This document shows positions 1,380 through 30,400 of a DNA stretch of 31,962 bases, piece after piece (positions within the stretch are counted from its first letter, which is position 1; every line of letters starts with the position of its first letter). The notes beneath the pieces were generated by a model. The model ran no database searches. It saw nothing but the letters and a program-made list of their open reading frames with translations, and was not told the origin of the DNA. The stretch spans positions 1-31,962 of IMG/VR virus record IMGVR_UViG_3300032242_000899; one strand, given 5' to 3'. A program made the translations under genes and the position numbers. This DNA comes from a virus.

Positions 1380-2547
1380 TCATAACCTCTACGATTCCGT
1401 TAATGATCCACTCTACTACCGGAACAGCAACGGCGTTACCCATCTGCTTGTACCGGTGGGAATCTGCTTGGTCTGCTGTCCATCCATCGGGGAACCCCTG
1501 CAAGCGTTCGCACTCCATAGAAGTAAGTCGACGCACTGCTCCTGTGGTAAAGAGCGTTTGGTTGTTGCCGGTAGCAAGCGTCAGAGACTGGTCATACTTA
1601 ATCAACGGCACCTTGCCCCCTCCGTCCTTGCCTTCTCGCATAGTCAGCAGCGCCGGTATCTCGATGTGGGCAACAGCGTTAGGGTGCGCTCCAGCAGGCT
1701 CCATAACGCCCATCCCATGAGAAGTGACGCCCAGTGCAGGACTGTCTACCCCACTGATCGGATCCTGCGTCATGTGAAAAGCGATTGGCTCTACAATAAG
1801 GTCGGTAGCATCTTTCCAGTCACGTGCTTTGGTTGTGGAGAATGTTCCATCGTCGGCATAATCTCCGAACCCGACCATGCGGTTGACTATCGGCTCTAGC
1901 CCATCTCCACCCGTGACCGTAGCGCCCTGTCTAGCGTCTCGGGCAGGTTCGTCCCCCTGCGCTCCGCTCGACGAAGTATCCCCTCGCACGCTCTGACGCT
2001 CAAATAATACTTTGGCAACACTGGTGATGTCTCCAGCACGTCTCGCAACGATGAAGACACGGCGCCTCCGCTGGGGAACTCCGAAGTTTTGCGCGTCCAG
2101 CACTCGCCACCCAACGCCATACCCCCTGTCAGCCAGCGCACCGACAACTGCTCCCATGTCTGCCCCTCCTGAACTTGTAAGTAGACCAGGGACGTTTTCG
2201 AGGACGACCCACTCCGGCTCCGTCTCGTCGATGAGACGGGTGATTTGCCAGTAGAGGCCGCTTCTCGCTCCATCCAAGCCAGCTCTCTTTCCGGCGATTG
2301 AGAGATCTTGGCAGGGGAACCCACCTGTAAGTATCCCTCGACTGGGAGTGAAGCCTGATTCTCTAAGTTGTCCACCTGTTACCTCCGTAACGTCATTAAA
2401 TAGTTTCGATGTTGGGAAATGCTTTTCGAGAATGCCTCTCGCGTGTTTGTCAATCTCGACTGATGCTACGACCTGAACCCCTGCACGTTCCATGGCAAGG
2501 TCAAAGCCGCCGACACCAGCAAATAGTGATACTCCTGTTAGTTTCAT
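1366..2547 (-). CDS. DNA (cytosine-5)-methyltransferase
   Basis: A full-length C5-cytosine methyltransferase (393 residues) that transfers a methyl group from S-adenosylmethionine to C5 of cytosine in a specific DNA site. Motifs occur in family order: motif I (FAGVGG, 9-14), motif IV with Pro-Cys-Gln and catalytic Cys79, motif VI Glu-Asn-Val (117-119), motif VIII Gln-Arg-Arg-Arg-Arg (159-163), motif IX (about 339-353) and motif X with Gln-Met-Gly-Asn-Ala-Val (368-373). The target-recognition region is roughly 220-335. The start overlaps the upstream gene as ATGA. No restriction endonuclease is recognisable nearby, so this is probably a solitary enzyme that protects phage DNA from host restriction or marks it. 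Site specificity cannot be read from the sequence. Confidence 0.95.
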   Translation of the reverse strand: MKLTGVSLFAGVGGFDLAMERAGVQVVASVEIDKHARGILEKHFPTSKLFNDVTEVTGGQLRESGFTPSRGILTGGFPCQDLSIAGKRAGLDGARSGLYWQITRLIDETEPEWVVLENVPGLLTSSGGADMGAVVGALADRGYGVGWRVLDAQNFGVPQRRRRVFIVARRAGDITSVAKVLFERQSVRGDTSSSGAQGDEPARDARQGATVTGGDGLEPIVNRMVGFGDYADDGTFSTTKARDWKDATDLIVEPIAFHMTQDPISGVDSPALGVTSHGMGVMEPAGAHPNAVAHIEIPALLTMREGKDGGGKVPLIKYDQSLTLATGNNQTLFTTGAVRRLTSMECERLQGFPDGWTADQADSHRYKQMGNAVAVPVVEWIINGIVEVMNEQA

Positions 2548-3155
2548 GCTCTACTCTTTAGCACATCATCTAGCACCGTTGCAAGCGCTAATCCAAGTTT
2601 CGGCGTCCTAACGTCTCCGACTAGGTACAATGCATAGCACCAAGCCATCTCATCGGTATCAGATTCGATAGCCCTAGACGCCCAGATAATCCAAGGATCC
2701 ATGGAGTTTAACGCCTCGGGTAGTAGTGGCTTATCGCCACCCTCAAACACTCGCTCGAACATACGGTCTCGCCATCCCTTGACTACGTTGTAGTTAAAGG
2801 TCAGCTCGGGCTGGAGTGAGATCTTGCCCTCGTACCTGTCCTGAATCATTAGGTCGAACCACTTGGCAGCCAGTACCCTTGCGTCGGATGGCAGTAGTTC
2901 GCCATACTCTACGGTTGGAGTGACCTCGCCAAAGAACGCCTGTCCGTCAATGTGGTGGTACTCGCCATCAACATCGACGCGAAACAGACGTGCTGGGAGG
3001 TTGCGCCATGGGATACTGTCGCAGACGCGAGAGCCAGGGTAGACGTGATATCCCTTCTCCGAGCCGCTATTGACTGCTACTTCACCCAGTTCTGGCCAGA
3101 TGGTACCCCAGATGGGGTCTACCATGTCCCTGTTTAGCCATTTGTACCACGCCAT
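2544..3155 (-). CDS. Hypothetical protein, 203 residues
   Basis: A soluble, Trp- and acid-rich protein with no membrane spans. The N-terminal 90 residues, starting Met-Ala-Trp-Tyr-Lys-Trp and containing Gly-Tyr-His-Val-Tyr and a Phe-Arg-Val-Asp-Val-Asp-Gly-Glu strand, loosely resemble small phage and actinobacterial domains that begin Tyr-Lys-Trp and carry a Gly-Leu-His-type turn; I cannot name the family with confidence. The C-terminal half (about 95-203) is helical. The gene is coupled by TAATG to the 48-residue gene upstream and by ATGA to the methyltransferase downstream. An accessory role in DNA modification is possible from context only. Confidence 0.65.
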   Translation of the reverse strand: MAWYKWLNRDMVDPIWGTIWPELGEVAVNSGSEKGYHVYPGSRVCDSIPWRNLPARLFRVDVDGEYHHIDGQAFFGEVTPTVEYGELLPSDARVLAAKWFDLMIQDRYEGKISLQPELTFNYNVVKGWRDRMFERVFEGGDKPLLPEALNSMDPWIIWASRAIESDTDEMAWCYALYLVGDVRTPKLGLALATVLDDVLKSRA

Positions 3156-3301
3156 TACAAGTCCGCACCTGCTGGATGCTGAATGTTCATGAGCAAGTTA
3201 CGGAGTTGCCATGTCTCGTCGATAAGCCACTGAATCTGGTCAGTCGTGATGGACTGATCCTTGTACCAGTTGGTCTCGATTTCTAATAGGGCGTCCTCCA
3301 T
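3155..3301 (-). CDS. 48-residue acidic helical protein
   Basis: The short product is acidic and Trp-rich (three Trp), predicted mostly helical, with no cysteines and no membrane segment. The frame is open further upstream, but the start at 3301 gives a TAATG junction with the stop of the HslV-like gene, and the stop overlaps the next start the same way. Because it is immediately coupled to the protease-like gene, it could be a partner, inhibitor or adaptor of that protein; this is inference only. Confidence 0.55.
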   Translation of the reverse strand: MEDALLEIETNWYKDQSITTDQIQWLIDETWQLRNLLMNIQHPAGADL

Positions 3302-3813
3302 TATGCCTCCACCGTCACAAACGTATGGTCTGCGGTGCAATCAGTCCACTTAGCGGCCGCTTCGAAAGCCACCGTGATACGTAGACGTGATGGGCCGTAG
3401 TCCTCGCTGGAGTAGAGGGAACCGAGAGCGAACTGGGCGCCGGAGCCGATGGCATGAAAGTCACCAAAGATGGCGATGTGTCCGAGGTCAGGCTGAATCT
3501 CGAACCATTGACCGGAGTACCCGATAAGGAACGTAGTGTCCTCATTCTTAAACTCTGCCTCGCGCCATGCCTCTGCAATCGCCGCTGTCATGTCATGGAT
3601 GTTGCAATCGGGACTGTCAACATCTAAGTCCTTTAGAGCTTGGACGCCTAGTTCCCCTCCTCGCCACGAACCGGCGAAACCGATAGCGACTGAACTACCG
3701 ATTCGGTAGACCTTGGGTGTGTCTGTTACCACCATGGTCTGTCCGTCTGATGCTGACTTGTCGCCAGCTATGTAGAGATCAACTCCATTTGTGTATCCGA
3801 TAATGGTTGTCAT
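3301..3813 (-). CDS. HslV/proteasome-like N-terminal-nucleophile hydrolase
   Basis: A 170-residue protein, close to HslV in size (about 175), with no propeptide. After removal of Met1, Thr becomes residue 1. Counting from it, Asp17 (in Ile-Ala-Gly-Asp), Lys33 (Pro-Lys-Val) and Gly47 (Gly-Phe-Ala-Gly) fall at the canonical numbers of proteasome beta subunits and HslV. A Gly-Ser-Gly at 122-124 corresponds to the conserved Ser129 region, and Asp157-Asp161 lies where the C-terminal Asp/Ser pair is expected. The likely activity is threonine peptidase, perhaps in a self-assembled ring. HslV normally needs the HslU ATPase, and none is present here. The start is fixed by an ATGA overlap and GGGAAG six bases upstream; a longer upstream frame would bury the nucleophile. 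It could instead be a non-proteolytic Ntn hydrolase or an Anbu-like protein. Confidence 0.8.
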   Translation of the reverse strand: MTTIIGYTNGVDLYIAGDKSASDGQTMVVTDTPKVYRIGSSVAIGFAGSWRGGELGVQALKDLDVDSPDCNIHDMTAAIAEAWREAEFKNEDTTFLIGYSGQWFEIQPDLGHIAIFGDFHAIGSGAQFALGSLYSSEDYGPSRLRITVAFEAAAKWTDCTADHTFVTVEA

Positions 3814-3998
3814 GAAAACTTCCCTGGTATTGGCCCTGTGTAGGGGATTACTTCGTTGCCTGGCATAAATACTTTGCCACAATGGTTGCAGATAACACGG
3901 TCTCTGCCTACCGATGAAAGGTGTAACTCCCATCGGTGCTGGTCTCGCATACTCGCTGCAAGGTCTTCTCGACGCTTACGCGCCTCACTAGTAGTCAT
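3810..3998 (-). CDS. 62-residue CxxC protein
   Basis: The N-terminal third is basic and helical. It is followed by His21 and His26, then Cys37-x2-Cys40 (Cys-Asn-His-Cys) followed by Gly-Lys-Val-Phe as in a zinc knuckle; the C-terminus is Pro/Gly-rich. One zinc could be held by the Cys pair and the upstream histidines. It lies between the annealase and the HslV-like gene, with TAATG before and ATGA after. Possibly nucleic-acid-binding; no family recognised. Confidence 0.6.
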   Translation of the reverse strand: MTTSEARKRREDLAASMRDQHRWELHLSSVGRDRVICNHCGKVFMPGNEVIPYTGPIPGKFS

Positions 3999-4645
3999 TA
4001 GAAAGGCTCATGTCCGTCAGGAACTGCCTTGGTGTTGAGTTCGTCAATCCATGTCGACGCCTCTGCCTTGGTCAGTTCTTCTGGTGCCTTACTCCAACGT
4101 GCCTTAGCCTCGGCTACGCCGTCCTTGCTCTGACGCTTGAGAATGGTCGACAGCGCCTTGAGTTGTGCTGGCGATGCAGTCTCGGTCGATGATGCCTTGG
4201 GTCGCTCGGAGTGAGGAGCTGGCAGGGGAGCAGAAAACTTCTGGGCGTAGGGTGGGTTACTGGCGGCATTGCCATCATCGTCCACGTCTGCTACGAGACC
4301 TAGTGCGGCCATGTAGGAGTATCGACGAGCATAAGTAACTGCTGATCCTTGCGCCTGTGGGTCATCCTTAATCAAGTGCAACTTCATCGTATGGGCAATG
4401 AACTGACCAGATGAGTGCAGAAGGTAGGTCGTGAGTGCGTCCGTACCGTCCTCTGCTTGTCCGATGAACTGACTGATTGACAGACCGTACTTGGTAAGGA
4501 CTGGCGTAGCAGTCTTGACTACCTCGGGGAGTGCAGCGTAGGTGGACTTAAAGAAAGGGTTTTTGCTTTCTTTAGGCACCGCTGAAAACTCTGCCTGGGC
4601 CTTGGCGAGCGCGCTCGCCAGCTCGTTGATTTGTTCTGACTTCAT
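3998..4645 (-). CDS. erf: ERF-family single-strand DNA annealing protein
   Basis: A phage recombinase (215 residues) that anneals complementary single strands after exonuclease resection, for replication-linked recombination or genome circularisation. Residues about 5-128 match the ERF domain: Asn-Pro-Phe-Phe-Lys-Ser-Thr-Tyr-Ala near 29, Tyr-Gly-Leu near 53, and the diagnostic stretch from Asp95-Pro-Gln through Ser-Ala-Val-Thr-Tyr-Ala-Arg-Arg-Tyr to Leu-Gly-Leu near 117, followed by an acidic Asp-Asp-Asp-Gly. Residues 130-160 are a Pro/Ser/Ala linker, then a helical C-terminal region. The protein ends Gly-His-Glu-Pro-Phe, reminiscent of the Pro-Phe tip of SSB tails. It is coupled by TAATG to the 58-residue gene that separates it from the exonuclease. 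Confidence 0.92.
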   Translation of the reverse strand: MKSEQINELASALAKAQAEFSAVPKESKNPFFKSTYAALPEVVKTATPVLTKYGLSISQFIGQAEDGTDALTTYLLHSSGQFIAHTMKLHLIKDDPQAQGSAVTYARRYSYMAALGLVADVDDDGNAASNPPYAQKFSAPLPAPHSERPKASSTETASPAQLKALSTILKRQSKDGVAEAKARWSKAPEELTKAEASTWIDELNTKAVPDGHEPF

Positions 4646-4821
4646 TACTTTCCCTCTTTCGTTAGGACTTCAAGGCCATCATAGACCTTCTGTAATACAT
4701 CTCGAATCTCACGGGCGTAGATTGCTACTCCTGTGTTTGATGACTTAGCCATCTCTGCGTAAATCGTGGTGATGCTGTCAACGGCATCGGCAAACAACCG
4801 GAAATCGTGAACGGCGCTCAT
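4645..4821 (-). CDS. 58-residue helical protein between exonuclease and annealase
   Basis: The frame starts as an ATGA overlap with the exonuclease stop and ends as TAATG on the annealase start. The product is almost all helix-forming with heptad-like hydrophobics (Leu, Ile, Val, Tyr), no cysteines and a charged C-terminus. Its position between the two recombination enzymes suggests a bridging or regulatory partner, but no family is recognised. Confidence 0.6.
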   Translation of the reverse strand: MSAVHDFRLFADAVDSITTIYAEMAKSSNTGVAIYAREIRDVLQKVYDGLEVLTKEGK

Positions 4822-5696
4822 CGTGCCACCTCCACGATGCCAGTGCCATCTGCAATGCAGGTCTGCTTAAAAGCGCAGTAGTCGCATTTCCAGTATGGAC
4901 GTGCCGCTGACGGATCAAGGTTACGGAGTTCCAGCGTACCGTCATCGTTGAGACCTTCGACAATGACGGGCTTTGACAACCATCCCTGCTCGGCCGCATC
5001 GACCAAGTTCTCCTGACGGCGAATCTCTGCTTCGGCCCACGGCATCCAAACAGCCTTGGGGATGTGCCACTCTGCAACGAATCGACCGATGGCATCAAGA
5101 CCTGCTCCAGCACCGACCGTCTTACTCACGGCTTCGAGGGCGATAGCACCAATGATTAGTGTGTCGCAGTCGTGGGTGTAGGCATTGAGTGCAGCTTGGA
5201 GTACGGCAGAGATGCGTGGCCCCTCGGGGTTGGTCAACTCTTTAGTGCGACGCTTGAGGCCGATGGACTTCTCGAAAGCAAAGCCACCCATCGTCTTAAG
5301 TTCAAACAATGCACGACCACCCTCCCAGTTAGGGATGATTGCCGTGATGACCTCGCCGTCAAGAACACCGTCAGATGACCCTGATGTGATGTTGCCGATG
5401 CGACCCTTGGGTTCAAACACTGCGCCAGGGTAGCGTCGACCAATCGCGTCTTGCACCCATTCGTGAATCTCTGTTCCAAGTGTTGTCACCCAGATAGCAG
5501 GTGCGTCAAAATCGTTTGTTACTTCGTACTCAAGTGCTTGGTATCCGAGAGCGCGTGAACAATCTCCTGCGCTGCTGAATCGAAGCTTGGTGTCGAATGC
5601 TTTTGGCTTCGGCCCCTTTGAGTTGTGATCCTCGATTAACTCATGGATGAGTGAATCGGTGAGAATCGGTGACACTGGTGTACGCCAGTCTGACAT
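4818..5696 (-). CDS. Cas4-like PD-(D/E)XK exonuclease with predicted Fe-S cluster
   Basis: A RecB/Cas4-type nuclease (292 residues), likely the phage exonuclease that resects DNA ends for the ERF annealase. Visible motifs are His78 (Glu-Ile-His-Glu-Trp), Asp109 (Ser-Asp-Gly), Glu132-x-Lys134 (Phe-Glu-Leu-Lys) and Gln167 with Tyr173 (QxxxxxY). Cys46 near the N-terminus with Cys271-x2-Cys274-x5-Cys280 at the C-terminus gives the four-cysteine layout that holds a [4Fe-4S] cluster in Cas4 and AddB-type nucleases. The ribosome site AAGGGAG lies six bases before ATG 5696. It is the first gene after the 172-base spacer, so it probably opens a transcription unit. No CRISPR array or other cas gene is present, so the Cas4 likeness reflects the fold only. 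Confidence 0.9.
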   Translation of the reverse strand: MSDWRTPVSPILTDSLIHELIEDHNSKGPKPKAFDTKLRFSSAGDCSRALGYQALEYEVTNDFDAPAIWVTTLGTEIHEWVQDAIGRRYPGAVFEPKGRIGNITSGSSDGVLDGEVITAIIPNWEGGRALFELKTMGGFAFEKSIGLKRRTKELTNPEGPRISAVLQAALNAYTHDCDTLIIGAIALEAVSKTVGAGAGLDAIGRFVAEWHIPKAVWMPWAEAEIRRQENLVDAAEQGWLSKPVIVEGLNDDGTLELRNLDPSAARPYWKCDYCAFKQTCIADGTGIVEVAR

Positions 5697-20734: not shown

Positions 20735-21295
20735 TTACGCCTTTCGTGGAGTGTGGAGTAGGTTATGAAGTTCGCTCAACACAGCATCCTGCTGGGCCTG
20801 TCCTTTTTCGGTCTTGTGGAAACCGAACTCTGGGTTTGTCAGGAGTTCCTGGCGCCAGTGTTCTAATGACATGGGGGTAGGGCGTCCAGTCTTCTCGTCG
20901 ACATTACCTGTAAGAGCCTTATTCCAGTTTGGGTCGGTAAAGTTAGGCTCCACCTCTTGCCCGAGGGTCTGCTTTGCCAGCATGCGGTACGGATCGAGAA
21001 GCGCCTTGACAGGGATACCTTGCTGGATTTGTGGTGCAAGCGTGGGGTAGAGACCTGATGCCATTTGCTGAATGTATTTTGAGAACTCACCGACTGCCTC
21101 GGAATGCTTCGTGTGGCGACCTGCAAGGTTCTGGCCCCAGTCCTTGATTGCTTCAAAGTCCATGGGAACGTGGTTGTCTTCGGCTACCTTCTGCAAAGCA
21201 CCGAGGACGTGGAAGTTGTGCAGGGTATCATCTCCCTGTGGTGTGGCGTCCATGGTTGGAGTAGCTTCTGGCATAGTTTCGTTAGGCGTTGTCAC
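20735..21295 (-). CDS. Hypothetical virion-block protein, 186 residues
   Basis: A soluble, helical protein with a disordered Thr/Pro/Met-rich N-terminus (1-25). It has a helical core containing Trp53, and Asn-Leu-Ala-Gly-Arg-His, Tyr-Pro-Thr-Leu-Ala-Pro and Pro-Met-Ser-Leu-Glu-His-Trp-Arg segments, with no cysteines and no membrane span. The start is GTG and overlaps the end of the giant gene by 14 bases. Because it lies between two putative internal virion proteins, a chaperone or core-protein role is plausible; no family recognised. Confidence 0.55.
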   Translation of the reverse strand: MTTPNETMPEATPTMDATPQGDDTLHNFHVLGALQKVAEDNHVPMDFEAIKDWGQNLAGRHTKHSEAVGEFSKYIQQMASGLYPTLAPQIQQGIPVKALLDPYRMLAKQTLGQEVEPNFTDPNWNKALTGNVDEKTGRPTPMSLEHWRQELLTNPEFGFHKTEKGQAQQDAVLSELHNLLHTPRKA

Positions 21296-24200
21296 TTAGC
21301 TTTAATCCTCTAAAAATCGAAATGTAACCTGATGTGATAACAGGGTGTTGCTTGACAAAATCAGTCAAGTAGGCTTTCCAGTCATCTTCGAATGACTGCT
21401 TCCAACCAGTACCTGCATACTGCCAAGACTGGTGCATCTCATCATACTTACTAATGATTTGCTTTACTAATGGTACCGTTTCTTTAAAACCAGTGCGGTC
21501 GGAAAGATTTTGGACACCAGTTTTGCTGTTAAGCATGTCTCGGACTTCCTTGAAAGCGGCTACACGAATAACCTTGGTGTCACCTTGACTTTGCGCCCAA
21601 ATGGTGTTCTGACTTCGGTAGTCGCGCTTAAGTTGCGAAAGTAGTGCAGGATCATCTCCACCCTGGTCTTTGACAAACTTCGGCAAGAACTCATAGGCAT
21701 ACCAGTTGCCCTCTTGTCGACGTGCTTCCTTGTACACCGAACGGGCATCAAGGTTAATACGCGAACCAGAGATTTGTTGATTATGGTATTCCGCAGAATC
21801 AAACTTTGCACCTTCCTTTGTGTGTGGTACAAAAGCCAGCGCGCCAGATGGGTATTTGTCGAATACATCAGGGTTAGCATTAGTGATACGTGACATATCA
21901 ACGGTTGCCTGTAACGGTAGACCTGTTGTTGAAGCGGTGCTGTGTGCGGCGAACCAAACGGCATCAAGATTGTCATTGTACAACTTGGCTAGTTTGCCAC
22001 TATCAAGACCAGCAATCTGTGCATCACGGACAAGTTTTTCCAACTCTGGTCGAGCAGAGGTAAGTTGCAATGATAGAGGCGAAACAAACGAAAGAACAGA
22101 TCGAGCGGCGTAAAGAGCTAATGCACCTTGCTTAGTCTCGTTAAGCATTTGATTCATCGACTTGTTTTGCCACATTTCCTTGATCGGCCCAAGGACAACT
22201 TTGCCGTTCTCAATGATTCCTGTTTCTACCAAGTGGCGAGCATTCTCTCGAACACTGTTGGCGTATTTGGCAGGTTGCTCTGTCTTGTATGCAGGGTTGC
22301 TCTTATCAAAGTAGTTTTGCATGTACTTTTCTGCAATCATGTACCGTCTGCGGTTTTCTTGCGCCAAAGCGTCCATCATCAGGCTCACCTGAATAGCGTG
22401 AAGTTGCATCGTAACCGAGTTACGACCACCTAGTTGAAAGGCCGCTAGTGAGGTGGCAGCTCGAATACCAGAGTTAGGTACCATCATTTGAAAAGTGCTG
22501 GCATTAGCGCCGATTTTGCCAAGGATTTGTTCGTTAGCCTGCTGAATCCACTTTTGGTGAGGGAATCTCATAGCAAGTTGACGTAATGGGAATGCTACTG
22601 CTGGCCCGAAATCAGGCTTAATAGAATCGAGCAACGAAACGGCACTGCCAGGGTTGCTACCCGTGGGGTCAGTCCAAGGCATAACAGATGCCAACGAAGT
22701 AAGTGATCCGGTTAAACCAATCGGTACTCCACTAGCAGGAGCCATGCCAAAAAAGTGCAAAACGTCAGTAGCATAACGACCAACCATTGTCGAACCTGGC
22801 AACAGCATTCCATTTTGATTGTCTAGGTTAGCCATGGTGTCAGCGCCATAGTGCTGCATAGCGAGCATAGAACGAACATACGCTTGGAAACGGGCTGGGT
22901 CTTCAATAGCAAACCGCCCAGCTCGACGGAGCGCCTGATTCTTAGCAAACCAGAATGGGAGATAGGCTCTTGACCATTGTTCTAGGACGTATCGGTCAGC
23001 AGGGTTGTGAACGAATGAGATAGCCTTAATGACTGCGCGCTGGCGAGCAATATTACGAGCCACCGCTGGGTCAAGGTCTTTCCATTGCTCTAGGTGATCT
23101 AGCGCCTTGTTGTACTCCATGAGATACAAAGGCTGGCGGCTAAGAGTGTCAATGATGGGCTGGGAGAACCGGTCATGGATTGCGCTAGAGGCGCGTCCAA
23201 TCGTGGCATTGAAAACATTGTCCATAAAACCACCGATTCCCTTGGCAGATGCCGTTGGTGTGGGAATGTAGTTAGGGAAATGAACGCTAGTTTCGCCACT
23301 AGTGTCTTTGTACTGTTCGGCAATGGAACGCTTGGTTACTGCACTCTTAGTAATGCGAGTAGTTGCTTTGTACTTTTCCGGTGTGTACTTGGCGCGAATC
23401 ATGTCCGATTTTTCTTTGTCGGACAAATCTTGGAACGCTTGATCCTTGTAGTCAGGAGCAAAGCGTGGGCCAACACGGGACGCTGGCAGACCAAAGTAAG
23501 TGTGTTCCTCTGGGGTCAACGTTTTAAGGTCGCTAAAGTCCTTACCCGAGTGCAGCAGAACTTCGTGATGAGATTGCATTTTGCCAGGAAACTTTGCGCC
23601 GGACGTTGCCCGTACATTAAGTTCACGGTGAGCTTCAATACGTGCTTGCTCTAAGGTTGGGCGTAGGTACAACTCTTGGATTCCCTCTGCTGTTTTAGGC
23701 AAGCGGTTGTTAGCAAGACGTTGGAGAACGTGGCGGTGGAACCGAGATTCCGTCATATTCTCAAGAGTGAATCGAGCGTTAGATGGGCCTCGACCATGGG
23801 TAAGCCACAGAATATGTGTCATCAGGCTATGCGCCCACTCACGGGTGGAATCAACGTCACGAAGTCGTCGAGACATAAGCTGACGTGCTTCTACGGAGTT
23901 AATGTCCGTAATGCCAGGGGTTGACAAAACTTCTTTTTGAATGCGCTCTAATGTGTCTCGGTTGATAGTTGCTTTACGAATAAAATTGTCGTAAGTCTTG
24001 GGGTCTGACCTCATAAGTTGCGACAAAGACGCCGTGATATTGTCTTCGGCCTCTTTCAGGCGCCAGCCAAGCGACATGCCAACATGTTGTTGCGGAGAAA
24101 GAAACTTGTAAAGGATTTGTGCTGACTTACGACCCACGGGGCTATTAGCGACATCATACAGTTGGCTAGATAAAGCCCTCATTGTGTCATCATTTAAAGC

Positions 24201-27200
24201 ACTCGATGGCAACCATGATCCGTTGGTATTACCCTTAGCAAGTTCATTACCTAAAACGCTGATTCTTCCGTCAACGTGCTGTGAACTTAAACCTCTTAAA
24301 TTGCCGCCAGTTTCTTTGATGTCTTGCGCTGCGCGCTCAACGAGCTTGCCTAGACCACCGCCTCGGGCGACACCCTTCATAAACTCATGTTCAACATCGT
24401 TTAAAGCTTGCAAACTATTATGAACTCTTTGCATAATCCAGTTGTGTTCTACTGAACCACCGATTTCTTCGCCAACAACCTGCTTGGCTCCGCGGTTAGC
24501 AGCTTCAATACCTTTAGCAACATGGTGGGCGAGTAGTGCCTTGCCGAACTCTTTACCACCAAGACGGAACATCGTAGCGATGGTTTCACTGCTAGACACA
24601 CGGGTAGCGAAACCAATAGTTGCAAGAGCCATAGGACGGAAATACTTGTCAATCAACCATTCACGGGTAAAATCGTGAAACATGTGTAGACCCTCGGATG
24701 TGTTAATCATCCGTTTTTCAGGAGCATCAAAAAACTCGTAGTTGCCAATCTTTTTTTGTACTTCTTCAACTTTTTGGTCAATCAGCGACTTAGATTGCAC
24801 CCCAAGGTCATCAAAGTATTTTTGAAGTGTCATCAAGTGATCAAGGTCATCGTTGTTTCGCTTTATCCCAGCAGCTTCATCATCAGTAATCTTTTTGTTT
24901 AAAGTAGTGATTTCATCAGAGATAAGATTTTGACGGTGGGCGATTTGAAGACGTTGCACTTCAAATGGACGACCAATGATTTCGGCAGCTTTGTCAAGTA
25001 CAACATTTTTCAAACTCTTGCTTCGATTGCTGGCAAGACCCTTGGCCACATATCGAATGTAATCATCAACAGCTTTGTAGTCAGGGAGCGTAATGAGGTG
25101 TTCGTGCGATTCAAGTAGACCAGCTGTGGGGTATTGCGAACTGCGCTGAAATGGGTTTCGACGGTCAACTACCTGGCTAATGTCAGCACCGGAATAGTTC
25201 CCAGACGCTCCACCACCACCCCATGCGTTAGCATACTCGTCCATAAGGGGAGCAAACTCTTTTTCTAAAACGTTACGTAGTTCAAGAGCATCGGTACGAC
25301 CGAGACCACCAGTACGAACTAGGTCTTGCAGAACCGCCTCGGAGTGGACATGGAATGTGTCACGGATAGCATTTTCAAAAACTACTTTCCATTCACGCGC
25401 ATTGGCAGTGTTGGCAAGACGGTTGATTGTCCAGTCAACAACATGAGGATCCATCCCCATAGCCAAAAACATTCGGCGGCCTAGGTCAAGTGATCGAGGG
25501 TCTCCAACCTTGATTTCTTTATTGGAGAAGTTCATCATGGCGTCAAAGTAGGTTGGCTTGAGGCTGACGGCACCGCGAGCAAGTTTGCCTTGTGCGCCAG
25601 GAGCTTTACGAGTTACTTTTTCTCCGGCGCGAGTATTACCTGGTGTAAAGCGGTTGCTTTCACGAAGTGCTGGAGTAAGTTCCTTTTGCGCTTCTAAGTT
25701 TTCTGTGTATTTCTTGTCTTTGTATTCCGTAAAACGTCCGTATGACGGCATGCGGTTTGGGTTGGCTAGTGCATGGGTCTCGACCGCCTTACCAAGAACA
25801 TTCACTACATCCTCTGGCGTTTCAGCGCGTGATAACAAATGAATCAAGTTGAGGGCTTGGTGGCCAGCTTCGGGGGTGACTGTGTTAGCGAACTGGGGGA
25901 ACACGCGAACGATGCGAGACGCGGAACTAACTTCTGCACCGTATTTGGCAAAGACGCGTCCCTCCAGCATTTTGTTAATCTGCTTCATCTGGCCACTAGC
26001 CTTAAGCAGATTTACTTTCTGGCGAGCCTCACTTGGTTTTTTACCGCTGGCAATGTGCTTACGGTAAATCTGGTCAAAGTATTGCTTTTCCTCTTTAGAT
26101 AAGGCTTCACGAAACTTTGTGTTTGCCTCTCGACTATGGGTGGCAATGTATTCAGCCATCTTTTTAAAAGCAGGATTGCTTTCGTACATGCGATACACGT
26201 CAGTTTTGCTAGTAAGTGCTGGGAGAGATTTGCCAAAAGGCAATGCTTTCATAACTCCAATGCTGGGATCGAAGTTAAACATGGTCAGCAAATCAGATAC
26301 ACCGGAAAGAGCATCAAAAGTAAAAGTGTTTTGGCGAAGACCAATCGAACTAGCCAGGTCTCGACCTAGCGAGACTGGGCGACCAGTGTTAGGGTCACGG
26401 TAGTTTTTACCGTCTCTAGTCGCCTCCCATGCATCTTTCCATCCCTTAGCCATTCCGGCAGCATCAGTATTGGCAGCAAGGTAGGCAGAAGTTTGGATGT
26501 TGATGGGAACTCGATAATGGTTCCATGAGTAGTTAAAAACCGAGTTCGTAGCGTTGGCGGCTCCCTTGAGACCCTTGCCTACGCCAGCAGAAAGACGGTC
26601 AAAGTTGTTTCCGTACTTGCCAGTAGCAGCGAGAAGTTCTGATTCAAGTGGATCAACAGAATCTTTAGCACCATGCCGGAGCGCAAGATCAGTGAGTCTT
26701 TTCAGGAGGGCAGTGCGCTCTGGGTCAGGCTTGCTAAGAATGAACTGGTGAGCCATACGGAGATACTGGGTGTGTTGCGATTCATTGCCAGCAGCTTGTG
26801 CCATTAAACGTAGTTCTGGTGCGTCAAGGAACTTGATAGCATCTTCGCCTATCATGGCGGCGACTTGCTTACGAAGACCAACAATCTCCGAAGCCTTTAG
26901 GAGCATGCCAAGACCCTTGGTAGCAGTGTGTAGCAAAATACCGCTACCGATTACGGCGCCAGCAGCTTCTGCGGCGGCAGCCTTACCTTGGGTAGCCTCG
27001 ATGTGGTGAAGCCACCGGACACTGTGCTGAATATTAGTAACAGATTCGATTAAGTTGCCAGCAGAGTTTGCTACCCCCATAATCCCACCGAAAACAGCAT
27101 GCCCGATTGGGTTGCCATCTTCAAATGAATACTGTTGGTTGCCCGTTGATTTGTCGATAGTTGTAGGTGTAGCAGATTCACCTGTGGCGTAGGCAACTCC

Positions 27201-27908
27201 ACGTTCAGCTTGAGTCAGACCCCATTGGACAGAGTTGGAGACCGATGTAAAAGCATTTCCTACTGCACCAAGTGTCTGCCCAAACACATCAGGAGCAAGA
27301 CGGTTAGCAGCGTTTTGAGCAGCGTTACTCCACCCCTCTTGGCTATTCATCAAATCACGGTAGACATAGGCAAGGTCACTCATAGTCGCCATGTGTCGCA
27401 TGTCATTAGCCTTGAGGTCTGACATGGCGGCTGCGAGAAGTAGTTGTGGGTGACGAATCAGGGTGCTGTCATTGCCTAGAGCGTGAGCAAGAGCAATAGC
27501 AGCATTTTCTTTTCCGGCTGCTGGATTGTCAATGTATGATTCAGGATGCCAAACCGAGTTGGCCTTTTTAAACCATGTGCCTTGCTGGTTCCCCGTAGGG
27601 TCAACACTGGCCATTTGCATGCCTTGATTTTTAGCCCAATCTGTTTTGGCTTTGCTTTGCCAGGTGGCTGCAAGATCTGGAGATAGTTGCTCCATTTGGT
27701 CAAGGCGGTTGGCTTCAATCTTGGCCTTGCGCTCGGCAGCCATTTGGTCTAGTTGTTCATGTGCGATAGCCGTGGGGCCAGATCCGACAATAGGTTGCTG
27801 GGTATCAACAGCAACTGCTCCGGTATGTGGCCGACTAGGGGCATACATAGGAGTAGAAGGCGGTGTTGCTGGCGCAGTTGCCGTAATCGGAGTTTGTGGT
27901 GTTGCCAT
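21282..27908 (-). CDS. Giant virion-associated protein, 2208 residues
   Basis: One uninterrupted frame covering about a fifth of the window. Residues 1-45 are Pro/Thr/Ala-rich and disordered. A glycine/alanine-rich hydrophobic stretch lies at about 308-338. Long helical regions follow, including coiled-coil-like segments near 1020-1060. Near 1643-1670 a block with Tyr-Leu-Pro-Phe-Trp-Phe-Ala-Lys-Asn resembles the amphipathic, aromatic-proline segments of large internal or polyvalent phage proteins. I found no lysozyme, ADP-ribosyltransferase, protease or RNA-polymerase signature by eye. Size, helical content and place after the portal fit an internal ejection protein analogous to T7 gp16 or an N4-type giant virion protein, but that is inference. 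TAATG joins it to the gene before. Confidence 0.65.
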   Translation of the reverse strand: MATPQTPITATAPATPPSTPMYAPSRPHTGAVAVDTQQPIVGSGPTAIAHEQLDQMAAERKAKIEANRLDQMEQLSPDLAATWQSKAKTDWAKNQGMQMASVDPTGNQQGTWFKKANSVWHPESYIDNPAAGKENAAIALAHALGNDSTLIRHPQLLLAAAMSDLKANDMRHMATMSDLAYVYRDLMNSQEGWSNAAQNAANRLAPDVFGQTLGAVGNAFTSVSNSVQWGLTQAERGVAYATGESATPTTIDKSTGNQQYSFEDGNPIGHAVFGGIMGVANSAGNLIESVTNIQHSVRWLHHIEATQGKAAAAEAAGAVIGSGILLHTATKGLGMLLKASEIVGLRKQVAAMIGEDAIKFLDAPELRLMAQAAGNESQHTQYLRMAHQFILSKPDPERTALLKRLTDLALRHGAKDSVDPLESELLAATGKYGNNFDRLSAGVGKGLKGAANATNSVFNYSWNHYRVPINIQTSAYLAANTDAAGMAKGWKDAWEATRDGKNYRDPNTGRPVSLGRDLASSIGLRQNTFTFDALSGVSDLLTMFNFDPSIGVMKALPFGKSLPALTSKTDVYRMYESNPAFKKMAEYIATHSREANTKFREALSKEEKQYFDQIYRKHIASGKKPSEARQKVNLLKASGQMKQINKMLEGRVFAKYGAEVSSASRIVRVFPQFANTVTPEAGHQALNLIHLLSRAETPEDVVNVLGKAVETHALANPNRMPSYGRFTEYKDKKYTENLEAQKELTPALRESNRFTPGNTRAGEKVTRKAPGAQGKLARGAVSLKPTYFDAMMNFSNKEIKVGDPRSLDLGRRMFLAMGMDPHVVDWTINRLANTANAREWKVVFENAIRDTFHVHSEAVLQDLVRTGGLGRTDALELRNVLEKEFAPLMDEYANAWGGGGASGNYSGADISQVVDRRNPFQRSSQYPTAGLLESHEHLITLPDYKAVDDYIRYVAKGLASNRSKSLKNVVLDKAAEIIGRPFEVQRLQIAHRQNLISDEITTLNKKITDDEAAGIKRNNDDLDHLMTLQKYFDDLGVQSKSLIDQKVEEVQKKIGNYEFFDAPEKRMINTSEGLHMFHDFTREWLIDKYFRPMALATIGFATRVSSSETIATMFRLGGKEFGKALLAHHVAKGIEAANRGAKQVVGEEIGGSVEHNWIMQRVHNSLQALNDVEHEFMKGVARGGGLGKLVERAAQDIKETGGNLRGLSSQHVDGRISVLGNELAKGNTNGSWLPSSALNDDTMRALSSQLYDVANSPVGRKSAQILYKFLSPQQHVGMSLGWRLKEAEDNITASLSQLMRSDPKTYDNFIRKATINRDTLERIQKEVLSTPGITDINSVEARQLMSRRLRDVDSTREWAHSLMTHILWLTHGRGPSNARFTLENMTESRFHRHVLQRLANNRLPKTAEGIQELYLRPTLEQARIEAHRELNVRATSGAKFPGKMQSHHEVLLHSGKDFSDLKTLTPEEHTYFGLPASRVGPRFAPDYKDQAFQDLSDKEKSDMIRAKYTPEKYKATTRITKSAVTKRSIAEQYKDTSGETSVHFPNYIPTPTASAKGIGGFMDNVFNATIGRASSAIHDRFSQPIIDTLSRQPLYLMEYNKALDHLEQWKDLDPAVARNIARQRAVIKAISFVHNPADRYVLEQWSRAYLPFWFAKNQALRRAGRFAIEDPARFQAYVRSMLAMQHYGADTMANLDNQNGMLLPGSTMVGRYATDVLHFFGMAPASGVPIGLTGSLTSLASVMPWTDPTGSNPGSAVSLLDSIKPDFGPAVAFPLRQLAMRFPHQKWIQQANEQILGKIGANASTFQMMVPNSGIRAATSLAAFQLGGRNSVTMQLHAIQVSLMMDALAQENRRRYMIAEKYMQNYFDKSNPAYKTEQPAKYANSVRENARHLVETGIIENGKVVLGPIKEMWQNKSMNQMLNETKQGALALYAARSVLSFVSPLSLQLTSARPELEKLVRDAQIAGLDSGKLAKLYNDNLDAVWFAAHSTASTTGLPLQATVDMSRITNANPDVFDKYPSGALAFVPHTKEGAKFDSAEYHNQQISGSRINLDARSVYKEARRQEGNWYAYEFLPKFVKDQGGDDPALLSQLKRDYRSQNTIWAQSQGDTKVIRVAAFKEVRDMLNSKTGVQNLSDRTGFKETVPLVKQIISKYDEMHQSWQYAGTGWKQSFEDDWKAYLTDFVKQHPVITSGYISIFRGLKLSDNA

Positions 27909-28378
27909 TAAATAACTGCGTACCGCATAAAGTCGGCAAGGTCACGAACAACTGAACTTGAGTATGGGCCTTTTGCCATGGTATCAAGTGCATCTAAAAT
28001 ACGCTGATGTTCAGGGTCACGCTGGATTACTCCACCAATGGCATTATTACGCCCTCCCTCATGGCTGTCTAGGTAGTCCTGGAAAGCAGTGGGATTATCA
28101 GGAGCATCATGGAGAGTAGGCGTAGGTGCGCTTAATGGGCTACTAGTCGCCTCGGGAGTTGGCATACCGGTTGGAGCAGGAGCAGGGGCTGGCATTCCAG
28201 CATTCTGACCTTCTAATGGCATGGCACGTTGGGCGGCACGTTGAGCGCCAGCTTCACCATAACCTTGACCGGTAGCAGCCTGGATAGGCAATGCTTTCGT
28301 GTCGTTTAAGTCAGTACGGTTAGCGTAAGCAGTTCCATCGGAACCACCTCGCTTGCCACCTTTACCAGCTCTCGGCAT
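27908..28378 (-). CDS. Proline/alanine-rich protein, 156 residues
   Basis: The N-terminus is basic and Gly-rich (Gly-Lys-Gly-Gly-Lys-Arg-Gly-Gly). The centre (about 55-90) is a low-complexity Pro/Ala/Thr/Met run. The C-terminal 65 residues contain a likely folded helical part with Phe-Gln-Asp-Tyr-Leu-Asp-Ser-His-Glu-Gly-Gly, Ile-Leu-Asp-Ala-Leu and a final Phe-Met-Arg-Tyr. It overlaps the zinc-ribbon gene by 17 bases and shares TAATG with the giant gene. The giant protein starts with a similar Pro/Thr/Ala-rich tail, so the two may interact. Function unknown; probably virion-associated. Confidence 0.55.
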   Translation of the reverse strand: MPRAGKGGKRGGSDGTAYANRTDLNDTKALPIQAATGQGYGEAGAQRAAQRAMPLEGQNAGMPAPAPAPTGMPTPEATSSPLSAPTPTLHDAPDNPTAFQDYLDSHEGGRNNAIGGVIQRDPEHQRILDALDTMAKGPYSSSVVRDLADFMRYAVI

Positions 28379-28532
28379 CGTCTACATCCTCTACTAACTG
28401 GATTAAATACAAATGACAGGGCATACAAACTGCTTGGTCAATCGTAGCATCATCATCAAGCGGATCGGGGAATAGTTCAACGTCTTCTTCTTTGCAACGC
28501 CAACATACGCCGAACACTCGAATCTCAACCAT
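28362..28532 (-). CDS. 56-residue zinc-ribbon protein
   Basis: The frame starts with an ATG sharing its A with the portal stop (TAATG) and ends 17 bases inside the next gene. The product has Cys10-x2-Cys13 (Cys-Trp-Arg-Cys) and Cys36-x2-Cys39 (Cys-Met-Pro-Cys-His), separated by an acidic stretch of Glu and Asp, then an acidic helical tail. It is a clear zinc-ribbon candidate. Lying just after the portal, it may assist assembly; no family recognised. Confidence 0.65.
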   Translation of the reverse strand: MVEIRVFGVCWRCKEEDVELFPDPLDDDATIDQAVCMPCHLYLIQLVEDVDDAESW

Positions 28533-30400
28533 TATTGGACAAGACCTCGTTCTGCGGCTGACTGATTAGAAGGTCGACGAAGACTTGAAAGCAATGATTG
28601 AAGGTCGCCTTGACCTGGTGCCGGTTGGATTGGTGCGCCTGGTTGACCGCCAGCGGCCATACCTGGCATTTGGTCAACCATGTTTGGCTGCTCTGGGTTA
28701 GCGGCCTCTTGTCCAGGGGGAGCCATCTCTTGTCCCTGCTGTTGAGCTTGCTGTGCCATGGCTTGCTTTTTCTGCATTTCCTCATGGACACGATTTACTG
28801 CTACTTCAAGAGGTACGTGTTCACTGGCCTTAATAACAGCGATGCGAGCAATGCTGGCAGGGTCAAGCTGGCCAGACGAAGCCTGCTGTTCTAGTCCTGT
28901 GAGCAGAGCCTGACGGATACCTTCAAGTTCAACTTGGTCGCGCTCTCTGGTTGGGTCTTCAATCGCTGGATCCATTTCACGTGCCGTTTGCTTCGACATG
29001 ATTCCTGTCCCCACGCGCTGTCCAATAGCGATAACCATTCCGTTGATGTCGGAGCCAGGGACAGAGTACTTGGCGTAACACAGGTCGGTTTCGAATGCTT
29101 CATTTGGTACATAGTCCTTTTGGGTAACGACACCAGACGTACCCATGACAAACTGACTTGGTTTGTCGCCATAATAAGCCTTCTGAAAGGCGATGGCACG
29201 TCGAATCTCTGCCTCCATACTAGCAGCAAAGATTTCTTGGTATTCCTGAATAGGCATGTCGATTGTGCTACCCATGACCATCTCGCCTCGACGAGCAGTA
29301 CGGATGTTCGAGCCTGATTCTCCACCAAACTCTGATGGGATACCAGCGGTGATGCGCTGGGCGCGCTCCAAACGATCTTGCGCCATTGCGCCGGCCTGCG
29401 AAGGTTGTATTCCAACCGTCTGCAACATACCGTTTTCAATCATTCCACGGCGACCCTGCTTACCATCGGCCTCCTCAACAATACGAGGCTTGCCGCTAGA
29501 GTTAGGGTGCGAGACAATCCATTCGTCTTGGAAAATGCTGCGGAATACGGCGATAGTCTCAAGAGCATCAAGTTTAGCCTGACGCTGGTACATACCAAAC
29601 AACTGGTCGAACTGACCGGAAAGACGGTCTAGGGTAACACGTCCTGGCATGACCACTGGGCAAATACCAGCTCGGTTTGGGATACGCTCCAAGACAGTTT
29701 GCATCGACCCACCAGATGACGGATCATTGTAGCCATTGGGGTTTCTCATAGCGCCCATGGCGACTAATACTGTTTCTTCGGCGTCTACGTATTCAAGTAT
29801 TTCAAACAGCGAATCTTCACGCTCTTTGGCGGTGTAGAGGACGCGAGCCTGCTCGGGGTAGTTGGCTCGAAGCCATGTCAAGGGTCGACGGTCAACGAAG
29901 ATGCAGTTTTCGGGTTCAATGTTGTCAGGGTCGTAAGACTGCGATGGGAATGTAGAAAGTGGGTTACGAGGGCGCCAATAGGGAATCTTGCGCTTGTCGT
30001 TAGGGTCAAGGGAGACTGGAGAAATGCTGACTGGGGAACTACCATATGCAGTCATAAAGCGAGCGCGTCGGCGCATCTTCATTGCATACTTGTTCATGTC
30101 CATCCAGCCAAGGGTGGCTAAACGGCGCTGGCGAGCCTTATCCTCGGATGCCTGAATGCCAGGTCGGAGGGCAGGGAATGCTACATCGGGCATAACCGAT
30201 GCAATCCGCATGGAGAACTGGTCAATGCCTTGGGCGATTAGGTTGGCAACCGCTGGCTGCTCAAGATCGTCAAGTTCTGGCAAAGGTACGACAATCTCAC
30301 CGTTGTAATGGCGTCGAGCTTCATCCATGCGTTGAATGACGGGCGCACGTTCACGACTGCGCTGATGGTACAGGTTGACGATTTCTTCTGCTGTTTTCAA
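28532..30400 (-). CDS. Portal protein
   Basis: The 622-residue product forms the dodecameric ring at the capsid vertex through which DNA is packed and ejected. The N-terminal helix, the Asn-Leu-Ile-Ala-Gln-Gly-Ile-Asp block, the Arg-Arg-Arg-Ala-Arg-Phe-Met-Thr-Ala-Tyr-Gly segment near 110, the Pro-Arg-Asn-Pro-Leu-Ser-Thr-Phe-Pro strand and the long helical region after 260 are as in HK97/SPP1-type portals of phages. The C-terminal 80 residues are Gln/Pro/Gly/Met-rich and disordered. The start overlaps the terminase stop by four bases (ATGA), the usual terminase-portal pairing. Unusual only in the long low-complexity tail. Confidence 0.88.
   Translation of the reverse strand: MKTAEEIVNLYHQRSRERAPVIQRMDEARRHYNGEIVVPLPELDDLEQPAVANLIAQGIDQFSMRIASVMPDVAFPALRPGIQASEDKARQRRLATLGWMDMNKYAMKMRRRARFMTAYGSSPVSISPVSLDPNDKRKIPYWRPRNPLSTFPSQSYDPDNIEPENCIFVDRRPLTWLRANYPEQARVLYTAKEREDSLFEILEYVDAEETVLVAMGAMRNPNGYNDPSSGGSMQTVLERIPNRAGICPVVMPGRVTLDRLSGQFDQLFGMYQRQAKLDALETIAVFRSIFQDEWIVSHPNSSGKPRIVEEADGKQGRRGMIENGMLQTVGIQPSQAGAMAQDRLERAQRITAGIPSEFGGESGSNIRTARRGEMVMGSTIDMPIQEYQEIFAASMEAEIRRAIAFQKAYYGDKPSQFVMGTSGVVTQKDYVPNEAFETDLCYAKYSVPGSDINGMVIAIGQRVGTGIMSKQTAREMDPAIEDPTRERDQVELEGIRQALLTGLEQQASSGQLDPASIARIAVIKASEHVPLEVAVNRVHEEMQKKQAMAQQAQQQGQEMAPPGQEAANPEQPNMVDQMPGMAAGGQPGAPIQPAPGQGDLQSLLSSLRRPSNQSAAERGLVQ

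Follow-up and report, generated by a model that had tools for sequence, protein, structure and literature searches.

An apparently intact proteasome-subunit-like hydrolase of a known phage family, encoded at several fixed but differing genome positions

Known proteasome homologues in bacteria and phages

Proteasome-like enzymes are central to cells, the proteasome being the cell's protein shredder. A survey by Fuchs, Alva and Lupas (2021; PMC8665760) reports 22 new proteasome homologues and places PPH, AAH, and CPH in phages. The survey describes no gene context hinting at the function of these homologues and no AAA+ partner co-occurring with them. It presents connectase as a proteasome homologue that is monomeric and ligates proteins, and the betaproteobacterial proteasome homologue (BPH) as a bacterial enzyme that has a longer acidic pore loop and works without an unfoldase. 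HslV genes without HslU have been reported in a Salmonella jumbo phage (PMC7823757). Among the virion proteins listed for one 121Q-group jumbo phage is a Clp protease subunit, and the term "HslV" is absent from the text on it. In our literature search, the phage family treated here was represented by annotation and one survey, and no study of activity, oligomeric state, expression, or function was found.

Here we describe a member of this family encoded in IMG/VR record IMGVR_UViG_3300032242_000899. The whole stretch of DNA analysed, 31,962 nt long, is called the window. The protein is a member of PHROG 1040, a family already catalogued in phages. The original prediction had considered the gene part of a possibly undescribed system; the family was known before, from PHROG 1040 and from PMC8665760.

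The hydrolase gene and its operon

The gene is a real ORF at exactly the coordinates predicted for it (Table 1), with its ATG at 3813–3811, 170 codons, and a TAA at 3303–3301 on the minus strand. A Shine-Dalgarno-like AGGGAAG lies just 5' of the ATG. The ORF listing also holds an alternative form of 210 aa, which starts at an ATG at 3933, within the 62-aa gene. The overlap with the 62-aa gene is the ATGA at 3810–3813, and the hydrolase stop and the start of the 48-aa gene share the sequence TAATG. Relatives of the small genes are found in L154 and L157, both for the 62-aa gene (blastp E 1e-11 and 2.5e-18, respectively) and for the 48-aa gene (blastp E 2.5e-7 and 5.9e-7), and the latter has a dN/dS of 0.125 against L001. 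The 203-aa gene has no Pfam match. As predicted, the setting is a recombination cluster, an operon shared with an ERF annealing protein and a Cas4-like nuclease. A cytosine-type DNA methyltransferase gene (phrog_116, E 1.2e-88) lies downstream in the same direction, at 1366–2547 of the window.

Table 1. Features of the window; residue numbers in parentheses follow the proteasome convention.
Feature	Position	Strand	Remarks
Proteasome-beta/HslV-fold Ntn hydrolase gene, PHROG 1040	3301..3813	-	170 aa + stop
62-aa gene, one CxxC	3810..3998	-	upstream of hydrolase; ATGA overlap
48-aa gene	3155..3301	-	downstream of hydrolase; TAATG overlap
203-aa gene	2544..3155	-	next in operon after 48-aa gene; relatives in L154, L157
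ERF single-strand annealing protein	3998..4645	-	Pfam PF04404 E 3.4e-23; phrog_2324
Cas4-like nuclease	4818..5696	-	phrog_1706 E 4.2e-11; phrog_1990
Portal protein	28532..30400	-	22% identity to ct2KA10 protein matching portal phrog_104
phrog_8200 gene	27908..28378	-	follows portal
Thr2 codon (nucleophile Thr1 once Met is removed)	3808..3810	-	T 150, S 1 among 151 relatives
Asp18 codon (Asp17)	3760..3762	-	D in 151/151
Lys34 codon (Lys33)	3712..3714	-	K in 151/151
Gly48 codon (Gly47, oxyanion hole)	3670..3672	-	G 141, S 6, T 4 among 151

The hydrolase and three of its neighbours have no match among the PADLOC models (E up to 0.1), and this lack rules out a known defence gene. A chance ORF is ruled out by the dN/dS values and by the uniqueness of the active-site pattern in the window, both given below.

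Predicted fold and active site

The protein has no propeptide, and removal of the initiator Met brings Thr1, Asp17, Lys33, and Gly47 into the canonical register that had been read from the sequence. Window ORFs of at least 120 aa have 350 start points, with nested starts counted separately, and a single one of these, that of the hydrolase gene, shows the pattern T/S2-D18-K34-G48. The Pfam Proteasome family (PF00227) matches residues 2–49 with 26.6 bits against a gathering score of 22.4, and PHROG 1040, annotated as "peptidase HslV family", matches residues 1–166 (E 1.1e-22). A profile of 24 relatives compared with the PDB matches HslV (1m4y, E 7.2e-16) and BPH (E 1.7e-12). The AlphaFold2 model based on 24 relatives (pLDDT 88.7, pTM 0.86) has the alpha-beta-beta-alpha Ntn fold, with helices 50–62 and 72–85 both predicted. 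Foldseek places HslV 4hnz first (E 3.8e-12) and aligns BPH 5ovs with a TM score of 0.80, while VIA-align superposes 165 residues of the model on HslV 1m4y (Z 20.9, rmsd 2.6). Among solved structures, HslV and BPH come closest to the model. By Pfam, PHROG 1040, the PDB profile, the model, Foldseek, and VIA-align, the likeness to HslV/proteasome-like Ntn hydrolases exceeds chance, and the 170-aa length bears out the predicted likeness to HslV. By its fold and its Thr1, Asp17, and Lys33, the window protein is a member of the proteasome-like superfamily, and it is apparently an intact proteasome-subunit-like enzyme.

The chemistry of such an enzyme could still be other than general proteolysis. 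Proteasome homologues include the ligase connectase (PMC8665760), and the phage proteins have diverged far from HslV (20–28% identity within phages; 25–27 bits to the HslV models), as would fit a non-proteolytic or highly specific, connectase-like Ntn enzyme. In the model, both helix pairs are present and nothing is inserted over the active site, in contrast to connectase as the survey describes it, and we consider such an enzyme distinctly unlikely here.

Relation to described families

The match to PHROG 1040 is full-length, and the window group forms a divergent branch with 25–30% identity to the other phage members. With one family member as a tblastn query, 177 of 50,697 phage records are matched (E up to 1e-3), and with a second query 171; the carriers are mostly Salmonella and Escherichia phages, many of them T5-like. 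The original statement that phages seldom carry such a gene is right as a count and misleading otherwise, since a named family is fixed in some phage groups.

Despite its likeness to HslV (ClpQ) in fold, length, and active site, the protein falls far under the curated equivalog cut-offs of the HslV NCBIfam models (26.9 bits against 137, and 25 against 157.75), which rules out an HslV orthologue; a further difference is that the phage has no HslU. To BPH it is similar in fold and in the profile match; according to PMC8665760, BPH differs in being bacterial, with its longer acidic pore loop, whereas the window protein is phage-encoded. Scans of cellular genome contigs found no cellular relatives of the hydrolase.

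With Group I of that survey the protein shares Thr1, Asp17, Lys33, and Gly47, the lack of a propeptide, and a compact subunit. Like the phage homologues described there, it occurs in phages and has no AAA+ partner. PPH is given there as having about 140 residues and no helix H2, and the window protein is ruled out as a PPH by its 170 residues and a second helix predicted at 72–85. Among PPH, AAH, and CPH, it is from PPH only that the protein is set apart. The survey states that no actinobacteria-specific phage with AAH was found; the phages studied here, whose hydrolases may or may not be AAH, appear actinobacteria-specific.

Conservation and selection

We gathered 152 distinct relatives, one of which lacks its start at a contig end, leaving 151 to be scored. 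Asp17 and Lys33 are invariant in these and position 1 is always Thr or Ser, as the original prediction would have it, among relatives picked with a profile that itself includes the catalytic columns. The hydrolase dN/dS is 0.084 between the window and L001 and 0.106 between L154 and L157; dS is saturated between the window and either L154 or L157. The gene is under purifying selection, with dN/dS about 0.1.

Two variations within the family were observed. Some hydrolases encoded before the terminase gene (L108, L134, L116, and others) lack the Ser of the GSG motif, which reads VGIAAEL in L108; they still keep Thr1, Asp17, and Lys33, and the Ser is kept in most other relatives. Aeromonas phage 2L372D carries two tandem PHROG 1040 genes (L248:6001-7454), coding for 183 and 294 aa, and their products could form mixed rings.

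Genome positions of the gene

Among phages whose portal and terminase proteins are homologous, the gene occupies three positions. The first is that of the window clade, in which the order is ERF, a short Cys gene, the hydrolase, a gene of 46–57 aa, and a gene of about 205 aa. Three distinct lineages of the clade (window/L001, L154, and L157) preserve this five-gene order, and to that extent the small system proposed with the 48-aa and CxxC genes has local support. Outside the clade, in the phages compared, the neighbours of the hydrolase differ. Even within the clade, a 79-nt gap replaces the overlap between the hydrolase and the small gene in L157, and the CxxC of the window is a CxC in L154 and L157; the coupling to neighbours is therefore local.

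The second position is that of the ct2KA10-type phages, in which the hydrolase gene lies between the portal gene and the phrog_8200 gene. Among 80 loci chosen through their hydrolase, the gene directly follows the portal in 79. A second sample avoids the bias of picking by hydrolase, its loci being picked by the portal of L092, itself a carrier; it consists of the best 80 of at least 597 IMG/VR relatives and shares at least 8 contigs with the first set. Eight of these loci are too short; in the 72 that can be assessed, the gene directly follows the portal in 68 and is absent from there in four. This locus is kept down to 43% identity. In the four exceptions (L171, L177, L186, and L204), a 75–87-aa ORF occupies the slot, the head genes are unchanged, and inspection by eye reveals no other protease-like gene there. 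Nor is there a copy elsewhere in these four records (12.7, 14.5, 24.6, and 37.5 kb), some of which are fragments.

The third position emerged from 44 records selected with the portal protein of the window, itself without a PHROG match. The hydrolase is present in 19 of them, twice in the ERF cluster and 17 times upstream of the terminase, at 1.1–2.7 kb from the terminase match in 17 of 17. The remaining 25 records, mostly fragments, are without it, and it is missing from G005, G031, G035, and G039, which are 30–44 kb long. In G005 and G035 (L162 and L163), ERF is followed by an SSB-like gene, in place of the Cys gene and hydrolase of the window clade.

The window also encodes a 2208-aa protein after the portal (21282–27908), with no PHROG match; its counterpart at that place in ct2KA10 is 1764 aa long and likewise lacks a PHROG match.

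PHROG 1040 is matched by the after-portal and before-terminase proteins as well as by proteins of T5-like, Microbacterium, and Actinomycetia phages. Metabolism genes surround the hydrolase gene in 121Q, Geobacillus E3, Vibrio, and T5-like phages. The T5-like phages EPS7 (L246:7001-7579) and TrudiRoth (L247:7001-7579) carry it between thymidylate synthase and RNase H, in a neighbourhood that includes genes for ribonucleotide reductase and dihydrofolate reductase. Thymidylate synthase, dihydrofolate reductase, or PhoH genes adjoin the hydrolase in several phages and not in others. Nucleotide-metabolism and RNase H genes of this type are described as early genes in the relevant passages of PMC8624392 and PMC3326045.

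The slot directly after the portal, in both the hydrolase-picked and the portal-picked loci, is what would be expected if the enzyme were a head-maturation or virion-associated protease that acts during assembly to trim the scaffold, the portal, or the giant internal protein. The constant place in the head module that characterises a prohead protease is seen in ct2KA10-type phages and fails in the window clade, in which the gene lies with ERF at about 25 kb from the portal. Another clade has it upstream of the terminase, the phages named above have it among metabolism genes, and the four portal-picked exceptions keep their head genes without the hydrolase or a substitute protease. The varying position and these hydrolase-less loci with the same head genes rule out an obligatory head protease, and we judge a head or virion protease of any kind to be improbable, more so than a connectase-like enzyme.

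Not all such phages need the enzyme, as the four of 72 loci and G005, G031, G035, and G039 demonstrate. Its absence from some close relatives might even point to an accessory gene unimportant to the phage, or to a decaying copy. Against this stand the dN/dS of about 0.1, the conserved catalytic residues, and the retention of one locus down to 43% identity, and we give the idea hardly any credence. The three positions in related phages suggest that the phages need the enzyme, and since the addresses are fixed but differ, what selection favours seems to be possession of the enzyme and not of a partner gene.

Phylogeny of the hydrolases

In a tree of 39 hydrolase sequences (172 columns), the window clade falls together (SH-aLRT/UFBoot 100/100) with sequences from Vibrio, Geobacillus, Psychrobacter, Moorella, Ochrobactrum, and E. 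coli 121Q phages. Hydrolases encoded before the terminase make up a clade of their own (100/100), and the after-portal hydrolases form another (99.6/100) that adjoins DSL-LC01 and Pumpernickel (87.1/85). The AU test narrowly rejects a tree that unites the three positions in one clade (p 0.0498) and does not reject pairwise unions of the position groups (p 0.249, 0.114, and 0.084). More than one gain of the gene is therefore favoured, and the best tree suggests three independent gains.

Hosts and ATPase partners

WhiB is an actinobacterial regulator. WhiB genes occur in 15 of 19 related records covering the three position groups, and a control search matched one of 14 genomes, that of Corynebacterium glutamicum. 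The WhiB genes point to actinobacterial hosts, and the virus would be one of freshwater actinobacteria. The window capsid protein has relatives among the capsid proteins of Streptomyces phages, FlowerPower for one; the 16 kb of FlowerPower inspected carry no annotated hydrolase. Two cultured actinobacterial phages, Microbacterium phage Pumpernickel and Actinomycetia phage DSL-LC01, do carry PHROG 1040 members.

No HslU match was found in any of six phage records, the window record included, and no AAA_2 domain in any of 12. PF00004 is absent from the window record and its two nearest long relatives, in line with the earlier observation that no ATPase gene is nearby. Seven of 12 records, all ct2KA10-type, do have PF00004 matches, and the one inspected is a 260-aa AAA_25/DnaB-like protein and not an unfoldase. 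A phage-encoded partner ATPase is ruled out by these scans.

The phage enzyme might nonetheless borrow and redirect an AAA+ ATPase of the host, such as HslU, ClpX/ClpC, or the actinobacterial Mpa/ARC. The closest solved structures include HslV, and the family also occurs in phages of hslU-bearing hosts (E. coli, Vibrio). In the phages studied here, this reading is opposed by the lack of HslU or AAA_2-type ATPases in the records scanned and by the actinobacterial look of the hosts, a phylum for which HslV is not marked in Table 1 of PMC8665760. The use of host HslU that had been suggested for the window protein finds no support on the same grounds. The survey also found no co-occurring AAA+ partner. 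HslV Lys80, a likely contact of the HslU tail according to the pertinent passage of PMC6429459, aligns with a Glu in the window protein, a weak point that concerns a single residue. Dependence on an unfoldase is, in our estimate, unlikely.

Proposed function

We give about an even chance to a stand-alone threonine hydrolase, probably a protease, that acts in trans during host takeover. This proposal builds on what computation has established, namely the fold, the active site, the selection, the changing genome position, and scans of phage records that turned up no ATPase partner. Removal of the initiator Met would expose Thr1 and yield a catalytically competent N-terminal-threonine hydrolase, which may assemble as a ring or a smaller oligomer without an AAA+ unfoldase. 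Its substrates would be small, unfolded, or newly made proteins, cleaved without ATP. These targets may be host or phage proteins, met in trans in the phase of takeover and DNA synthesis, with no single adjacent partner. Early action in trans is suggested by the changing genome position and by the early-type neighbours both here and in the T5-like phages, early expression being derived from gene order alone.

HslV, a dodecameric double ring that HslU activates, is nearly inactive without HslU, so stand-alone activity of the phage hydrolase is not assured. The constant after-portal place in ct2KA10-type phages would suit a virion role equally well, and this counts against a role in takeover.

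More tentatively, phages of freshwater actinobacteria may rely on a self-sufficient, unfoldase-free threonine protease, a "mini-proteasome" gained repeatedly by phages whose head genes are related and held at fixed but differing loci, that clears host or defence proteins early in infection. We regard this wider picture as possible, if somewhat unlikely.

Implications

At least 597 portal relatives in IMG/VR represent uncultivated phages, and in most of those examined the hydrolase gene has a fixed address beside the portal. The gene bas30_0067 of TrudiRoth, a T5-like phage of E. coli K-12, belongs to the same family, which makes the function directly testable in laboratory strains. If the "mini-proteasome" reading is true, this enzyme would become the first viral proteasome to have its own role. 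The window hydrolase is a further member of a known phage family, and its multiple fixed positions sharpen the question of what role this enzyme plays.
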